From Brevirhabdus sp. (GTDB taxonomy: Bacteria > Pseudomonadota > Alphaproteobacteria > Rhodobacterales > Rhodobacteraceae): a stretch of 64,000 nt of DNA. The position numbers were made by a program, and so were the translations under genes. The notes under the pieces were generated by a model, which did no database searches, was not told the origin of the DNA, and worked only from the letters and a program-made list of their open reading frames with translations. Below are positions 32,914 through 39,948 of this stretch, one piece after another. The stretch lies in the NCBI GenBank assembly GCA_024637315.1, contig JAGXFH010000018.1:1-64000 (forward strand), read 5' to 3'. Every line of letters starts with the position of its first letter. Position 1 is the first letter of the stretch.

Positions 32914-33723
32914 TCAACGAGCGCTATCGTTAAGCAATTGATCCATCGTGGTTGAAGGTTGATCACATCCCGCGGTACCGACGATCTTCGCAGGAACGCC
33001 AGCAACAGTTTTGCAGGGAGGCACTTCCTGCAAAACCACAGAACCTGCCGCAATCCGGCTGCACGCGCCGACCTTGATATTGCCAAGCACCTTTGCTCCG
33101 GCGCCAATCATAACGCCGTCGCCGATCTTAGGATGTCTGTCATCATCTTGTTTGCCCGTGCCACCCAGTGTCACTGAATGAAGCATTGAAACATTATCCC
33201 CAACTACAGCTGTCTCCCCGATCACGATGGAATGAGCATGGTCTATCATTACGCCTTTCCCAATTCGAGCGGCCGGATGAATATCCACACCAAACTGCTC
33301 TGAAACCCTCATTTGTACGAAATAGGCCAAGTCCTTTCGTCCTTCCGTCCATAGCCAATTCGCAATGCGATAAGATTGAATGGCTTGAAAACCTTTAAAG
33401 AACAAAAGCGGCTGCAAGAACCGGTGACAGGCAGGGTCGCGCTCATATACCGCAACAATGTCGGCCCTGGCCTTTTGACTCAGTGACGGATCCCCGCGGT
33501 AGGCCGCGTCTGCAATCTCCCTCAGAAGTTGCTCGGACATTTCGGCCGAAGCGAGCTTTTGAGCCATCCTGTAAGCGAGTGCGCTTTCCAAATCCTCGTG
33601 GTGGAGTATGCAGGCGTGTAACATCCCACCCAAAAGCGGTTCATCCTTCACTGCACTGAGTGCCTCGGTAGTTATTCTCTCCCAAACCGGATCGATCTTG
33701 GCGATCGTTTTGCGCATTTCCAC
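32914..33723 (-). CDS. cysE: serine O-acetyltransferase
   Basis: A 269-residue hexapeptide-repeat acetyltransferase making O-acetylserine for cysteine synthesis. An alpha-helical N-terminal domain (WERITTEALSAVKDEPLLGGMLHACILHHEDLESALAYRMAQKL) precedes the left-handed beta-helix with DIHPAARIGKGVMIDHAHSIVIGETAVVGDNVSMLHSVTLGG (catalytic His and Asp). It converges on pdhC, 25 bases apart. The neighbouring position to a GTA cluster is common in Rhodobacterales. Confidence 0.96.
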   Translation of the reverse strand: MEMRKTIAKIDPVWERITTEALSAVKDEPLLGGMLHACILHHEDLESALAYRMAQKLASAEMSEQLLREIADAAYRGDPSLSQKARADIVAVYERDPACHRFLQPLLFFKGFQAIQSYRIANWLWTEGRKDLAYFVQMRVSEQFGVDIHPAARIGKGVMIDHAHSIVIGETAVVGDNVSMLHSVTLGGTGKQDDDRHPKIGDGVMIGAGAKVLGNIKVGACSRIAAGSVVLQEVPPCKTVAGVPAKIVGTAGCDQPSTTMDQLLNDSAR

Positions 33724-33862: not shown

Positions 33863-34573
33863 CTACAATCTTGGCAGATTCAATCGAAGCAGGTTAATCG
33901 CCAACCTGATCGATCCATCTACAAAGTTAGCACCTTCAGGCGTCAGTATGAGATTTTCCACATCATGATATGTTATTGGAGTTTCGCTCAGACCCCGTAC
34001 CCAGCTGCCAGTCTGAAAGCTCAACCCATTTCCATACCGATCGGCGGAGGCTGCCACGCCCAGCTGCCAGCCACTAAGTGTACCACCGAAGGTTTGGGTA
34101 ACTCGGCCGGTGACCCCAAAAACAACGGAACTTCCGGGGATCGCGCCTACCGCAACTGATGTTGCACCGGCGGAAATGACGTGGTCGAATTCCACGACCT
34201 CATGCACCATGGCAGCCCCGTTTTGCGAGATTGCGACTGCGCCCAACATCCAATCCGCTCCATCGAACAAGGCAGAAGAAGAGACATCTATGATCCAAGC
34301 GCGCCACCCAACGCGTGGAGCAACAAACACCCAGCCTCCGTTGGTGTAAATTGCCACTTTACCTTCTCGCCCGGTCCAAGCACCGGTCGAACCGTCGGGT
34401 ATCGCGTAGCAGTCGCCATCAGCGGCCACACTGGGGGGCGACAGAGAACTCGCAGAAAGCAAATCCAACTGGGTTAACCCATCGAGACGAACCATGGCCT
34501 CATTGACCGTCACATGTTTCTGCGCTTGTGCGGCTTGCAACAATGGCAAGGCCAGCCGAGGTGTTTCAAACAT
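33863..34573 (-). CDS. DUF2793 domain protein, GTA/phage tail-associated
   Basis: A 236-residue protein beginning with the DUF2793 signature ETPRLALPLLQAAQAQKHVTVNEAMVRLDGLTQL, then WVFVAPRVGWRAWIIDV and a beta-rich C-terminal half with GATSVAVGAIPGSSVVFGVTGRV. DUF2793 domains occur in phage and GTA tail-fibre-type proteins. Its start overlaps by eight bases the end of the terminase/g15 chimera, so it is the last gene of the collapsed GTA transcript. It has kept an intact frame. Confidence 0.85.
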   Translation of the reverse strand: MFETPRLALPLLQAAQAQKHVTVNEAMVRLDGLTQLDLLSASSLSPPSVAADGDCYAIPDGSTGAWTGREGKVAIYTNGGWVFVAPRVGWRAWIIDVSSSALFDGADWMLGAVAISQNGAAMVHEVVEFDHVISAGATSVAVGAIPGSSVVFGVTGRVTQTFGGTLSGWQLGVAASADRYGNGLSFQTGSWVRGLSETPITYHDVENLILTPEGANFVDGSIRLAINLLRLNLPRL

Positions 34574-37094
34574 TCACATCTATCCTTCTAAAAAGCCCTG
34601 CGCCGTACTGGTTTGATAGCTGCGCGACATGGGCCGAGAAGCCCGTTGAGGCTCCATCCGAAACTTGCATCGGCAGCGTGTAGGTCCAACTTGCTGTTGA
34701 TGCCGTGATCTCACGCACGACCAATCCGGCGTGTATGAGGCGAACAACGTACTCTTCCCTGTCTTCCCCAAGCGGCACCTCGAGTGATTGCCAGCTGTCA
34801 CCGTCAATCCGAGTTCGTCGAACCCAAGAGAATTCGATATCTCCCGACAGATTGCGGCGAGCCTTCAAGTGGGTCGGTGCGTAGGGTCGTAGGCCAACCC
34901 CTTCGAAAGATAACACATTCTCTGTATAGGCCGGATCGTCGATTGGTTGTCTGGCTGGGCCAATACGATAGTGTCGTTCGAGACCCCTCTCGGAAAATTT
35001 CATCTGAATCTGTTGTGGCCCCCCATCCAGCAGAACAAAGTAGCTGCCTGTCGGCCAATCCAGCGACGGCAAGGCATCTGTACCTGCCTGCCCACGCAGA
35101 CGCCCAGAAATCTCGTAGGTATTCTCTTCGACAAGGCGGGCATCAGTGAATTGCAGAACTTCCCAGTTCGAGGGCGTTCCATCGCCAATAGCCGCAGTGT
35201 TTGCGCCGTTTGCGACGGCATCGGGAAGTGCAGATGACAGGGCACCGCCCAGAAGCCGCACCCGAAATGGTGCGCCCCGATCAAGAATTCCTGGCGCGGC
35301 GGCGAGCAAAGGTGTCTCGATGAAACCTACGACCGGTTTCTGGCGGATCAGTCGGTTGAGCGCGTAATCATGGCCTGTCGCCGAACTGTAAACTGCTACT
35401 GATCCTGGCCATGGATTTGCAGTTACCGCCAGATGGGGCGCCACTTCCGATTCCTCTCCGGTTAACAATGGCAAGTCCAGAAAGGTTGAAAAGACTGGAG
35501 TTGGCGCCGTGAAGGCCCGTATGGGACTTGGCATCTCAACCTCATTGCTATGCCGATAAACATCGGACTCAACTCTGACGGCCTCGACTAATTGTGAGCC
35601 GAAGTGAGCAACTCGATCGACACGGTACCGCGTTCCATCTGAATGGCTTGACAGGACCAATACGTCACCTGCTCCGACACGCAGTTCCGACAACGGCAAC
35701 GAGAACTTGACCCCGTCTCGAGCAACCCGGGCCTCAGCCAGCCAGCGTTCGGTGATAGCCCTCCCCTCGGTCCTTGTCAGAAGGATCGGCATTTCCGACG
35801 TCGCGAGCAGTTGTGAGGCGTCATCTGGAAACAACGCCTCTTCCGCGCGCGCATCATAGTCCCCGTCCGCATCCACGAAACTCAGTTGTAGCCGTCCGAC
35901 GATCTCCGCCTGGGGGGCACGAACGTGTTCGATACTGCTTGAAAGCTCCGGGGAAAATGCCAATGCGTTGATATCGACTGATGCGCTTAGTTGGCCTGTC
36001 CGCGTCTGAAAGATCAGCCTTCCGCCTCTCTCTATGGCCTCAAACCCAAACGCCAACATTAAGGGTTGTAGTGCGGCCCGAGCATCCCGGGTTTCCGCAA
36101 CGGAGTATCCGCGAAGGTAGCCGTAAAGACGGGTGGTATCAACGGATGGCACTCCGGATCTAGCGCATATTTCTTCCACAACATCCGCTAACGATCGCGA
36201 TGCAGTTCGCCCATTGATCCAGTGTCCGCGATAATAGTTCTGCCCATCCGACCATAAACCAGTGTTCTGCGGGAAAAATGGGAACGGACGTGCATCCCAC
36301 GCCCAAACGTGCGCATTGTCCATGTCGACCATCCGCTCGCCGTAAATTGGTGAGACCGGATTGTTCTCCGGTTCATCCCAGAACTCAATCATCGCGCGCA
36401 GGTACTGCATTTGGATCAGTTCGTCACGGCGACCGTCTGAGTAGCTAGGCAAGCTCGACTCCGAGGATCTTGGATCTAAGAACCGATTAGGCTGGTTCGT
36501 GCCCTTGTCCACTGCCGCGCAACCATATTCGTCGACCCAAGCGGCGTCGAACTGCGGCCCCCGCAACGCTTCCGGCTGATGTGCCGAAAACACCTGCGCC
36601 GTCGCCCCGTTCGGCCATTCCAGCAACTTCCGCGTGGCCTTCCATTCGGGCCGCCGATCGGGCGGCGAACACGCCAGAATACCCGACTCACCGAAGATCA
36701 TTACCTCACGAACCTGCTCGATCGTCTCGCCGACCAGCGCGACCCGCTTTGCACGGCCCTGATCCAACGGCTTGTCGCCCTCGACTTGCGCCCGCACCCA
36801 TTCAGCACCGGCGCGGGTCTTTCCCGCACCGCGGCCTCCCATGATCACCCAGGTCCGCCAGTCCCCCTCCGGCGGCAACTGATGCTCCATCGCCCAGAAC
36901 TCGAACAAAAAAGGGAGCGCCAGCAGCGCTCCCTCCTCAAGGTCATTCAGAAAGGTCTCGACTCTCTCGGGCGGACCGGAGGCAAGCCATTCGGCGTCGG
37001 ATCTCGTCGCGCGCCTTTCCAAAGTCGAGCGCGAAGTCCTGAACAATGCCGGTTTTGTGTCTTCGTTTCTCTGCAAGTCGCTTCCGCTCCTCAA
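34566..37094 (-). CDS. chimeric GTA gene: N-terminal ATPase half of large terminase (g2) fused in frame to C-terminal part of tail protein g15
   Basis: One intact 842-codon frame made of two proteins. Residues to about 189 are GTA/phage large terminase: EFWAMEHQLPPEGDWRTWVIM, Walker A GGRGAGKT at 86-93, the QVFSAHQPEALRGPQFDAAW strand and Walker B-type VDE. From residue 189 on the sequence is GTA g15 (megatron-type): YGCAAVDKGTNQPNRFLDP, RRDELIQMQYLRAMIEFWDEP, MVDMDNAHVWAWDARPFPFFP, then phage-tail_3-like and C-terminal receptor-side regions. The RNase H-like nuclease of the terminase and the first part of g15 are missing, as is everything that normally lies between. The start is uncertain: ATG 37094 overlaps g1 heavily, and an in-frame TTG at 37022 would give a more usual N-terminus. 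Confidence 0.9.
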   Translation of the reverse strand: MRSGSDLQRNEDTKPALFRTSRSTLERRATRSDAEWLASGPPERVETFLNDLEEGALLALPFLFEFWAMEHQLPPEGDWRTWVIMGGRGAGKTRAGAEWVRAQVEGDKPLDQGRAKRVALVGETIEQVREVMIFGESGILACSPPDRRPEWKATRKLLEWPNGATAQVFSAHQPEALRGPQFDAAWVDEYGCAAVDKGTNQPNRFLDPRSSESSLPSYSDGRRDELIQMQYLRAMIEFWDEPENNPVSPIYGERMVDMDNAHVWAWDARPFPFFPQNTGLWSDGQNYYRGHWINGRTASRSLADVVEEICARSGVPSVDTTRLYGYLRGYSVAETRDARAALQPLMLAFGFEAIERGGRLIFQTRTGQLSASVDINALAFSPELSSSIEHVRAPQAEIVGRLQLSFVDADGDYDARAEEALFPDDASQLLATSEMPILLTRTEGRAITERWLAEARVARDGVKFSLPLSELRVGAGDVLVLSSHSDGTRYRVDRVAHFGSQLVEAVRVESDVYRHSNEVEMPSPIRAFTAPTPVFSTFLDLPLLTGEESEVAPHLAVTANPWPGSVAVYSSATGHDYALNRLIRQKPVVGFIETPLLAAAPGILDRGAPFRVRLLGGALSSALPDAVANGANTAAIGDGTPSNWEVLQFTDARLVEENTYEISGRLRGQAGTDALPSLDWPTGSYFVLLDGGPQQIQMKFSERGLERHYRIGPARQPIDDPAYTENVLSFEGVGLRPYAPTHLKARRNLSGDIEFSWVRRTRIDGDSWQSLEVPLGEDREEYVVRLIHAGLVVREITASTASWTYTLPMQVSDGASTGFSAHVAQLSNQYGAGLFRRIDVNV

Positions 37095-37284
37095 ACAGCA
37101 AAGTTGCTATCTTTCTGTATTCATGTGCCAGATCTCGCGCCGCCACCGGAGTCACGAACTCGCCGGTGTCGACACGTTTCGCGGCCGCCCTGAAAACCTC
37201 GGCCGCTTCGTTGAAATGCTCTTCGACGCCAAGAAGAACCTTCTCAGCGCTCCCGTCCTCGTCGTCGGGTCTGATCAATATCAT
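36943..37284 (-). CDS. GTA gene g1, small-terminase-type protein
   Basis: A 113-residue, mostly helical, charged protein: HFNEAAEVFRAAAKRVDTGEFVTPVAARDLAHEYRKIATLLFEERKRLAEKRR, then DFALDFGKARDEIRRRMACLRSA. This matches the first gene of the Rhodobacter capsulatus-type GTA cluster, reported there as the small terminase that recognises DNA for packaging. Its 3' end overlaps the chimeric g2/g15 frame, as g1 and g2 normally overlap. Only g1 and the start of g2 remain of the packaging module, so it cannot serve a complete motor from this locus. Confidence 0.82.
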   Translation of the reverse strand: MILIRPDDEDGSAEKVLLGVEEHFNEAAEVFRAAAKRVDTGEFVTPVAARDLAHEYRKIATLLFEERKRLAEKRRHKTGIVQDFALDFGKARDEIRRRMACLRSARESRDLSE

Positions 37285-37525: not shown

Positions 37526-38686
37526 CTAGTTAGCCTCTTTCGCCGCTTCGGCCTCAATCACACGCCATTTCGCAACATTCGCATTGTGCTGTTCCAGCGT
37601 CTCGGCAAAAGCATGGCCTCCGCTGCCATCGGCCACGAAGAAGAGGTAGGGTGTCCTTTCGGGGTTGAGCGCCGCCTCGATGCTCGCCATTCCCGGGTTG
37701 GCAATCGGCGTCGGCGGCAGCCCGTCGATGACATAGGTGTTGTAGGGCGTTTCCTTGCGCAACTCGCTCTGCCGCAAGCCACGATCGAGCACACCCTGCC
37801 CATTCGTCACGCCATAGATCACCGTTGGATCGGTCTGCAGCCGCATTCCCTGCCTCAGCCGATTGACGAAGACGCTTGCCACCTGCCCGCGTTCTTCCGG
37901 CACGCCGGTCTCCTTTTCGACGATCGAAGCCAAGATCAGCGCTTCTTCCGGCGTGTCGATCGGCAACTCGTCGGCCCGGTTCGCCCAAGCCTCGGCCAAC
38001 CGCGCGGATTGCAAAGCCTCCATCTGTGCCAGCAACTCGGTCCGGCCGGCTCCAACGGTAACCTCGAATGCCTCGGGCGCCAATGTGCCCTCGGCGGGCA
38101 CCTCTGTCACCTCGCCCTCCAGAAAATCGACCGCCTTCAGCGCTTCGACCACCTGCCAACTCGTCACACCCTCCGCCAGCGCGATCCGGTAGCGGGTGTT
38201 GCGATCTTCGCGCACTTGCGTGTATTTCGGCGGCACCTCACCGATACCGGGCACGAATTCGGCCACATCGGCAAATCGTTCAGTCGCAGGATCAAGTTCC
38301 CGCACCCTGATTTCGGCTTGCCGCACTCCAATGCGGTAGACCACCTCGGTGCCGCAGGTGCTGGCCCCGCCGCGCGTCACGATCTCGACGATCTCGGCCA
38401 TGCTGGCGCCTTCCGGCACCAGGAACGCTCCAGCCTTCAACAGCCCGGCTTTGTCGGAATACTCCGCCCCCATCCGAAAGATCGACGGGCTGCTGACAGC
38501 GCCATCCCCGGCCAGTTCATTGGCCACCCGGCGCATGTTCGAGCCGGCGTCCACCCGCAGACAGATCGCTTGTTCCAGCGGCCCTTCGGCGGTGTACTGC
38601 GCCTTGCCCCAGGCAATCAAACCGCCGACCGCAATCAGTACGACGACAAACAAGGTCAGCGCGTTAGAGGCGATGTTGCGCCACAT
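37526..38686 (-). CDS. mltG: endolytic murein transglycosylase MltG
   Basis: A 386-residue inner-membrane enzyme with an N-terminal anchor (LTLFVVVLIAVGGLIAWG), a LysM-like segment, and the YceG-like catalytic domain: LILASIVEKETGVPEERGQVASVFVNRLRQGMRLQTDPTVIYG (catalytic Glu in ASIVEKET) and SPYNTY-type ETPYNTYVIDGLPPTPIANPG. MltG is thought to end nascent glycan strands. The start overlaps the fabF stop by one base (TGATG), an order common in proteobacteria, and a terminator follows. Confidence 0.95.
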   Translation of the reverse strand: MWRNIASNALTLFVVVLIAVGGLIAWGKAQYTAEGPLEQAICLRVDAGSNMRRVANELAGDGAVSSPSIFRMGAEYSDKAGLLKAGAFLVPEGASMAEIVEIVTRGGASTCGTEVVYRIGVRQAEIRVRELDPATERFADVAEFVPGIGEVPPKYTQVREDRNTRYRIALAEGVTSWQVVEALKAVDFLEGEVTEVPAEGTLAPEAFEVTVGAGRTELLAQMEALQSARLAEAWANRADELPIDTPEEALILASIVEKETGVPEERGQVASVFVNRLRQGMRLQTDPTVIYGVTNGQGVLDRGLRQSELRKETPYNTYVIDGLPPTPIANPGMASIEAALNPERTPYLFFVADGSGGHAFAETLEQHNANVAKWRVIEAEAAKEAN

Positions 38687-39948
38687 CAGCCTGCCACCTT
38701 GCGGAAGACGACCGAAGCGTTGGTGCCGCCGAAGCCGAACGAATTCGACAACGCGACATTGATCTTGCGCTCACGCTTGGCATTCGGCGCCAGGTCGAGC
38801 TTCGGCTCGACGGCGGGGTTGTCGAGGTTGATCGTCGGCGGCGCAACCTGATCGCGGATCGCCAGCATACAAAAGATCGCCTCGACGGCTCCCGCCGCCC
38901 CCAACAAATGCCCGATGCTCGATTTCGTGGAACTCATCGTCGCTCCCGCAGCAGCATCACCCATCAGCCGCTCGACCGCGCCCAGCTCGATCGTGTCGGC
39001 CATCGTCGAGGTGCCATGCGCGTTGATGTAATCGACATCCGCAGGGGTCAGCCCGGCACGATCCAGCGCCGCCTTCATGCTGCGATAGCCGCCATCGCCG
39101 TCCTCGGCAGGCGCCGTGATGTGATAGGCGTCACCCGAAAGGCCGTAGCCCACGACCTCGCAATAAATCCTCGCGCCGCGCGCCTTGGCGTGCTCGTACT
39201 CCTCCAGCACCACGACGCCCGCGCCTTCGCCCATCACGAACCCGTCGCGATCCGAGTCATAGGGTCGGCTGGCCTTCTGCGGCTCATGCCCGCGCTTGGT
39301 CGACAGCGCCTTGCAGGCGTTGAACCCACCGATGCCGATCGGCGAGATCGGGCTTTCCGCGCCCCCCGCCACCATCACATCGGCATCACCCCACTGGATC
39401 AGCCGCGCCGCGTCGCCGATGGCATGGGCGCCGGTCGAACAGGCTGTCACCACCGAATGGTTCGGCCCCTTGAAGCCGAACCGGATCGAAACCTGCCCGG
39501 ACACTAGATTGATCAGGGCCCCTGGAATGAAGAACGGTGAAATTCGCCGCGGTCCCCGCTCATGCAGTAAAATTGCCGTTTCGGCGATCGAGGTCAGCCC
39601 GCCGATGCCCGAGCCGATCATCACACCGGTCCTCAGCCGGTCCTGCTCATCCTCAGGCGTCCAGCCCGCATCATCGACCGCCTGCTGCGCCGCCGTGATG
39701 CCGTAAAGGATGAAGTCATCGACCTTTCGGCGCTCCTTCGGTTCCATCCAGTCATCGGGATTGAAGGTGCCGTCAGACCCGTCTCCATAGGGGATTTCGC
39801 AGGCATAGCTGGTGGCAAAACCCTGGGTGTCGAACCGGGTGATAGGTCCGGCCCCCGATTGCCCGGCCAGCAGCCGCTTCCAGGTTGCCTCAACCCCGCA
39901 GGCCAAAGGCGTGACCATCCCCAATCCCGTAACGACTACCCGGCGCAT
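38686..39948 (-). CDS. fabF: beta-ketoacyl-ACP synthase II
   Basis: A 420-residue condensing enzyme of fatty acid elongation. It begins RRVVVTGLGMVTPLACGVEATW, with active-site Cys in VVTACSTGAHAIGDA near residue 170, His in YINAHGTSTMADTIE near 309 and the second His in STKSSIGHLLGAAGAVEAI near 346. It is full length. An acpP gene commonly sits just upstream of fabF, but none is present here; the upstream 454 bases contain no recognisable gene. Confidence 0.97.
   Translation of the reverse strand: MRRVVVTGLGMVTPLACGVEATWKRLLAGQSGAGPITRFDTQGFATSYACEIPYGDGSDGTFNPDDWMEPKERRKVDDFILYGITAAQQAVDDAGWTPEDEQDRLRTGVMIGSGIGGLTSIAETAILLHERGPRRISPFFIPGALINLVSGQVSIRFGFKGPNHSVVTACSTGAHAIGDAARLIQWGDADVMVAGGAESPISPIGIGGFNACKALSTKRGHEPQKASRPYDSDRDGFVMGEGAGVVVLEEYEHAKARGARIYCEVVGYGLSGDAYHITAPAEDGDGGYRSMKAALDRAGLTPADVDYINAHGTSTMADTIELGAVERLMGDAAAGATMSSTKSSIGHLLGAAGAVEAIFCMLAIRDQVAPPTINLDNPAVEPKLDLAPNAKRERKINVALSNSFGFGGTNASVVFRKVAG

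Follow-up and report, generated by a model that had tools for sequence, protein, structure and literature searches.

The loss of GTAs is usually pictured as ordinary decay. The question raised by the present locus is why, within the window (the whole 64,000-nucleotide stretch of Brevirhabdus DNA analyzed here), the first half of the GTA large terminase gene g2 continues in frame into the last half of the tail gene g15, and whether the resulting protein is a passing remnant or is kept for some function. In this genome, the particle-making GTA is lost, and one long hybrid gene remains.

The hybrid frame and its locus

The hybrid lies on the minus strand, which was not given in the first-pass annotation; its parts and neighbors are as follows.

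34566–37094, minus strand: g2::g15 hybrid ORF, 842 codons without a stop; TTG start as listed (the exact start codon is uncertain)
36528–37094, minus strand: TerL-derived N part, residues 1–189; Terminase_6N at 84–190, where alignments with intact g2 end (190)
36816–36839, minus strand: Walker A motif GGRGAGKT, residues 86–93, invariant in 20/20 aligned chimeras
36528–36542, minus strand: Walker B motif AWVDE, residues 185–189, with D188 and E189 invariant in 20/20 aligned chimeras
36528–36530, minus strand: Glu189 codon, i.e., the join, a Glu codon shared by g2 and g15
34569–36527, minus strand: megatron-derived C part, residues 190–842, corresponding to about 653–1304 of the RcGTA megatron
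36207–36527, minus strand: remnant of the GTA TIM-barrel (peripheral) domain, residues 190–296 (Pfam; low AF2 confidence)
34569–36197, minus strand: megatron central and fiber-binding domains, residues about 300–842 (limits from PMC7296036), mostly confident in AF2 with a few short low-confidence loops
36943–37284, minus strand: g1, small terminase (TerS), upstream of the hybrid, which its 3′ end overlaps
33863–34573, minus strand: DUF2793 protein, downstream of the hybrid
32914–33723, minus strand: cysE, syntenic right flank
37526–39948, minus strand: mltG and fabF, syntenic left flank

The earlier reading of this frame as an in-frame g2::g15 chimera joined at the shared Glu codon is borne out by the open frame and by the profile and structure matches. 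Along with the Terminase_6N domain, Pfam recognizes the C-terminal third of GTA_TIM (profile positions 204–299 of 299) at residues 180–275, Phage-tail_3 at 335–495 and Rcc01698_C at 588–687. The NCBIfam profile GTA_megatron (NF048004) is covered from position 639 to 1297 of 1299, with a score of 755 against a cut-off of 800, and residues 623–1302 of the RcGTA megatron (PDB 6tba, chain 8A) match the C part. In many genomes, the matches of intact g2 end at about query residue 190 and those of intact g15 begin at about 180–189, so the two alignments break near residue 189, as had been anticipated.

Compared with the GTA TerL gp2 (a T4-like large terminase), the hybrid possesses the N-terminal ATPase half with both Walker motifs but lacks the coupling motif and the C-terminal nuclease domain, megatron sequence following residue 189. 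The megatron gp15 is divided into the iris (1–46), adhesin-like (47–229), peripheral (230–744), central (745–984) and fiber-binding (985–1304) domains (PMC7296036). Relative to it, the hybrid begins only at about residue 640–650; hence, the iris, the adhesin-like and most of the peripheral (TIM) domain are missing, whereas about 90 residues of the latter and the whole of the central and fiber-binding domains are retained.

The locus is flanked by fabF–mltG on one side and by cysE–pdh on the other. The mltG–cysE synteny of RcGTA-like elements is thus preserved, and g1, the N half of g2, the C half of g15 and DUF2793 are homologous to their counterparts in the RcGTA-type head-tail cluster (g1–g15) of Rhodobacteraceae; in contrast to that cluster, everything from the C half of g2 through the N half of g15, including the portal, protease, capsid and tail genes, is absent, and no particle can be made. 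The source genome is 99.9% complete (a draft of 86 contigs) and harbors the hybrid as a single copy; searches of it for the N-terminal half of g15 and for the GTA capsid gene g5 found neither. Accordingly, the proposals that the cluster had collapsed and that no particle can arise stand for this genome, with the reservation that the event was not a one-off.

Distribution and repeated origin of the junction

The junction was traced with a query of 101 residues spanning the join, and a chimera was called from an end-to-end match. Of 397 Rhodobacteraceae genomes, chosen so that nearly every one represents a different genus, 17 gave such a match, each a single one, whereas intact genomes gave separate g2 and g15 matches. 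In a single genus, 4 of 62 species carry the junction (one of them already among the 17), and two further MAG contigs, from Ascidiaceihabitans and Planktotalea, carry it as well. Overall, the identical ungapped junction is present in 22 Rhodobacteraceae genomes, all 22 conforming to the pattern GPQF-xxx-W-x-DE | x-GC with zero inserted or lost residues. Wherever flanks are available, the gene order is fabF–mltG–g1–hybrid–[DUF2793]–cysE, cysE following the hybrid in every locus with an available right flank. As the same fusion is present in 21 genomes other than the source, a chance fusion is excluded, and the private event implied by the first-pass annotation gives way to a junction found in many genera.

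The same distribution speaks against the misassembly which that annotation had considered. The source assembly is indeed a fragmented draft, but the junction recurs across many genera, including in a single-contig assembly (G080), and the missing GTA genes are absent from every chimera genome tested; the probability that misassembly or contamination explains the hybrid is therefore negligible. The N half of g15 was absent in 20/20 chimera genomes tested and present in 5/5 intact controls, and the GTA-type capsid gene g5 showed the same pattern, so retention of the excised segment elsewhere in the genome was rejected.

The fusion appears to be confined to this family: among 385 genomes across the class, it was seen in this family alone, intact g2 or g15 occurring in others, and none was seen in the phages, plasmids and other alphaproteobacterial families searched. 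A Desulfofustis phage match to hybrid residues 98–841 turned out to be an intact tail protein of 1328 aa, and two candidate in-frame g2 fusions (G070 and G236) were not borne out by their ORFs. No earlier report of a g2::g15 fusion was found in the open-access library searched.

Phylogenetic evidence from trees built by a quick method, with one genome per species, indicates that the join arose repeatedly, since the chimeras do not form one clade. A single clade of all chimeras, i.e., a one-clade origin, is rejected (delta lnL 1350, AU p=2e-11), as is a single clade of the four chimeras within one genus (p=1e-5). The C-part tree requires 16 label changes, of which well-supported branches make 11 unavoidable, and in both the C-part and N-part trees chimeras adjoin different intact relatives (e.g., G095 with G404, G068 with G032, and G405 with G012); the chimera G444 is nested in a clade of intact G434, G442 and G448. 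The label changes are taken as gains of the fusion and not as its losses, given the implausibility of an exact regain of about 12 kb. The nearest intact relative found is a MAG contig (L036, 4724–6319) with fabF, mltG and g1 upstream of an intact g2, which is 87% identical to the source N part.

At least eight other collapses were documented in the family (G019, G149, G004, G102, G137, G363, G266 and G302). In these, the middle of the cluster is likewise lost, but the endpoints differ from the hybrid and from one another, and most of the loci are frameshifted or unfused. One of them (L159, 8378–10222, in G019; matching L035, Pseudoroseicyclus tamaricis) contains another in-frame fusion, running from g2 up to about chimera residue 72 into g15 from residue 333. 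This locus may represent an in-frame deletion inside an older chimera of the main type, since it groups with G105/G243 in the C-part tree. In G149 (L221), residue ~416 of g2 is joined in frame to residue ~1146 of g15, with an earlier break in g2; this is another independent collapse. In the single-contig assembly G004 (L160, 7653–11811), g2 ends at about residue 408, and the g15 sequence after it starts at about residue 284 and is frameshifted; this is a different collapse at the same locus, already decayed.

The position of the join

The deletion had been ascribed, as a probability, to a tiny sequence shared by both genes at the Glu codon. However, the longest in-register run at this codon is 2–4 bp in 48 of 56 intact clusters, and in-phase g2 × g15 runs equal to or longer than the join run number about 38,000 (median), so that tens of thousands of equal alternatives compete with it. 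A Leu-type residue after the join, which would lengthen the homology, occurs in 6/22 chimeras vs. 14/58 (p=0.78), i.e., without enrichment. A microhomology hot spot was rejected accordingly, the homology being too short, with no gain in length at the joins that did occur. A join at a shared Trp three codons upstream has homology of at least equal length to draw on in 43 of 56 intact clusters and would yield a product of equal length, with WFTE replacing W-x-DE and the Walker B Asp lost; this product was never seen among the 22 chimeras. The absence of the Trp join hints, short of proof, at a role for the Walker B aspartate.

These loci fit neither a fixed recombination site nor a traveling junction, since there is neither synonymous conservation nor shared flanking sequence. 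Tests for excess synonymous conservation at either break site revealed none, and a conserved DNA recognition site was rejected on these grounds. If one deletion allele of ancient origin had entered intact lineages by homologous recombination, the junctions would be identical by descent, without repeated mutation. At the same time, windows of 10–20 codons beside the junction show no excess similarity between chimeras, at all positions or at third positions (a comparison of limited power, because third positions are saturated between genera), and both flanks of the chimera G095 match its intact sister G404 right up to the junction. With no signal of spread by recombination in these windows, such a history is improbable.

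Proposed retention of the hybrid and its putative role

The frames are open in 19 of the 22 chimeras over the available sequence, which in G165 and the Planktotalea MAG breaks off or becomes divergent close to the 3′ end, and a frameshift or stop is present in three (G080, G340 and the Ascidiaceihabitans MAG). In G080, the locus (L145, 7528–10042) is a main-type chimera with a frameshift near residue 422, representing decay after fusion. The dN/dS of chimera pairs, a comparison suggested by the first-pass annotation, is low in both parts, 0.09–0.24 in the N part and 0.17–0.29 in the C part for pairs with measurable dS, and resembles that of intact pairs; these are estimates of a pairwise count method, with synonymous sites near saturation in many pairs.

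In two sister pairs, G000/G001 and G105/G243, both members appear to share the deletion, and constraint has persisted although dS has reached about 1 or more. The source genome (G000) and G001 form a group separate from the intact L036 (support 95/93). Their dN/dS is about 0.10 in the terminase half, 0/58 TerL-invariant residues are violated in either, and 0–1 of 89 are violated in the C part. With 0.5 changes per site under neutral drift, about 28 in-frame stops would be expected. G105 and G243 jointly depart from several residues common to 54 or more of the 56 intact proteins, and G019 is also deviant at two of these positions, but the frames of G105 and G243 are open, with dN/dS of 0.11 and 0.17, which points to an old, retained chimera. 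The constraint is slightly relaxed and not lost, since chimeras have somewhat longer tip branches in the N part (p=0.012) and accumulate violations at invariant N residues slightly faster (permutation p=0.04). The adjacent g1 was found in 22/22 loci, its C-terminal TerL-binding helix being recognized by pattern in 20, and its dN/dS in chimeras is the same as in intact clusters. The RcGTA gp1 binds the ATPase domain of TerL via this C-terminal helix (PMC6854486). The first-pass annotation had left two options, a recent deletion or a hybrid kept for some function; the apparently shared deletion of G000/G001, together with its low dN/dS and full set of TerL-invariant residues, favors the latter.

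Hence, the preferred explanation, to which we assign a probability of about 0.5, is that g1 and the hybrid represent a recurrent module selectively retained for some function. The ~12–13 kb between the Walker B Glu of g2 and the matching Glu of the g15 TIM barrel have been lost repeatedly and independently, each loss leaving g2 and g15 fused in frame at this one codon. The resulting protein combines the first half of the packaging ATPase with the complete central and fiber-binding domains of the megatron, with g1 staying beside it. The identity of the junction, its repeated origin, the absence of the remaining GTA genes from the genomes tested, the open frames and the low dN/dS are shown by the present data, whereas we infer that the exact codon recurs because selection favors that protein. 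The hybrid probably does something, since it has arisen repeatedly and is intact in at least some lineages. A narrower proposal is that in-frame GTA collapse, under selection, gave rise to the same hybrid with complete Walker A and B motifs on some nine occasions or more, and that the protein acts with TerS in a cellular role, for instance by interfering with phages or GTAs; this is tentative, with the odds leaning somewhat against it.

Several findings count against retention: 3/22 chimeras are broken, most sit by themselves at the ends of long branches, a placement to be expected of short-lived forms, and AF2 provides no confident fold for residues 172–299. The chief rival to a retained function is recent, repeated loss through a putative mechanism that often deletes exactly this segment, the chimeras being non-functional remnants in non-producers with constraint inherited from the intact GTA. 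The mostly isolated tips and the three broken chimeras agree with it, and the source protein violates 0/147 intact-invariant residues, as would a just-collapsed GTA. On the other side stand the short homology with its numerous in-phase alternatives, the lack of a Leu-type excess and of a conserved DNA site, and the two constrained sister pairs with their apparently shared deletions; on balance, we consider this rival rather unlikely, if a serious contender. Retention in cis, with the in-frame join merely sparing DUF2793 and cysE from polarity and the protein itself dispensable, might be suspected from the presence of cysE in every locus with an available right flank and from the impaired GTA-mediated transfer reported upon loss of cysE1 in R. 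capsulatus (PMC9552610). Still, it leaves the exact codon and the amino-acid-level constraint unaccounted for, collapses without fusion exist (G102, G363 and G266), and there is little chance that it is correct.

As to what a retained module would do, the AF2 model (from a shallow 20-chimera alignment) is confident over most of 300–842 and fair at about 100–170, depicting two megatron domains plus a partial ATPase half. A confident hybrid fold or hybrid domain was looked for in this model and not found, and a structural reason for the exact codon is not visible, since the region carrying the join and the TIM remnant has no confident fold. No known anti-phage defense family was matched by PADLOC at E 0.001. 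A decoy or interfering role toward related phages or GTAs is favored as the leading guess, though a doubtful one, because each half normally mediates interactions during GTA or phage assembly. The ATPase half would putatively engage TerS, and the megatron half the baseplate or fiber partners, of such phages or GTAs; as an outcome, a former GTA producer would become a non-producer with some protection. Counting against a new function, the hub, tail and capsid partners are absent from these genomes, which makes the unchanged constraint on the megatron half odd.

Microhomology does not account for the recurrence of one exact gene fusion across a bacterial family. Should selection be rebuilding the same hybrid time after time, the family would offer a remarkable example of convergent molecular evolution, and domesticated viruses would have a fate not recognized before; otherwise, a putative precise deletion mechanism would be at work. 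In either case, the junction represents a simple marker separating GTA non-producers from producers in Rhodobacteraceae genomes.

Megatron sequences were also encountered in entries recorded as other elements. Among the “viral” contigs of IMG/VR, many with a length of about 14 kb (loci L326–L405) carry a GTA g15 match from the start of the C part onward and look like GTA clusters recorded as viruses. Likewise, Paracoccus replicons listed as plasmids (NZ_CP038196.1, NZ_CP035287.1, NZ_CP141053.1 and others) contain a megatron region with 48% identity to the hybrid.
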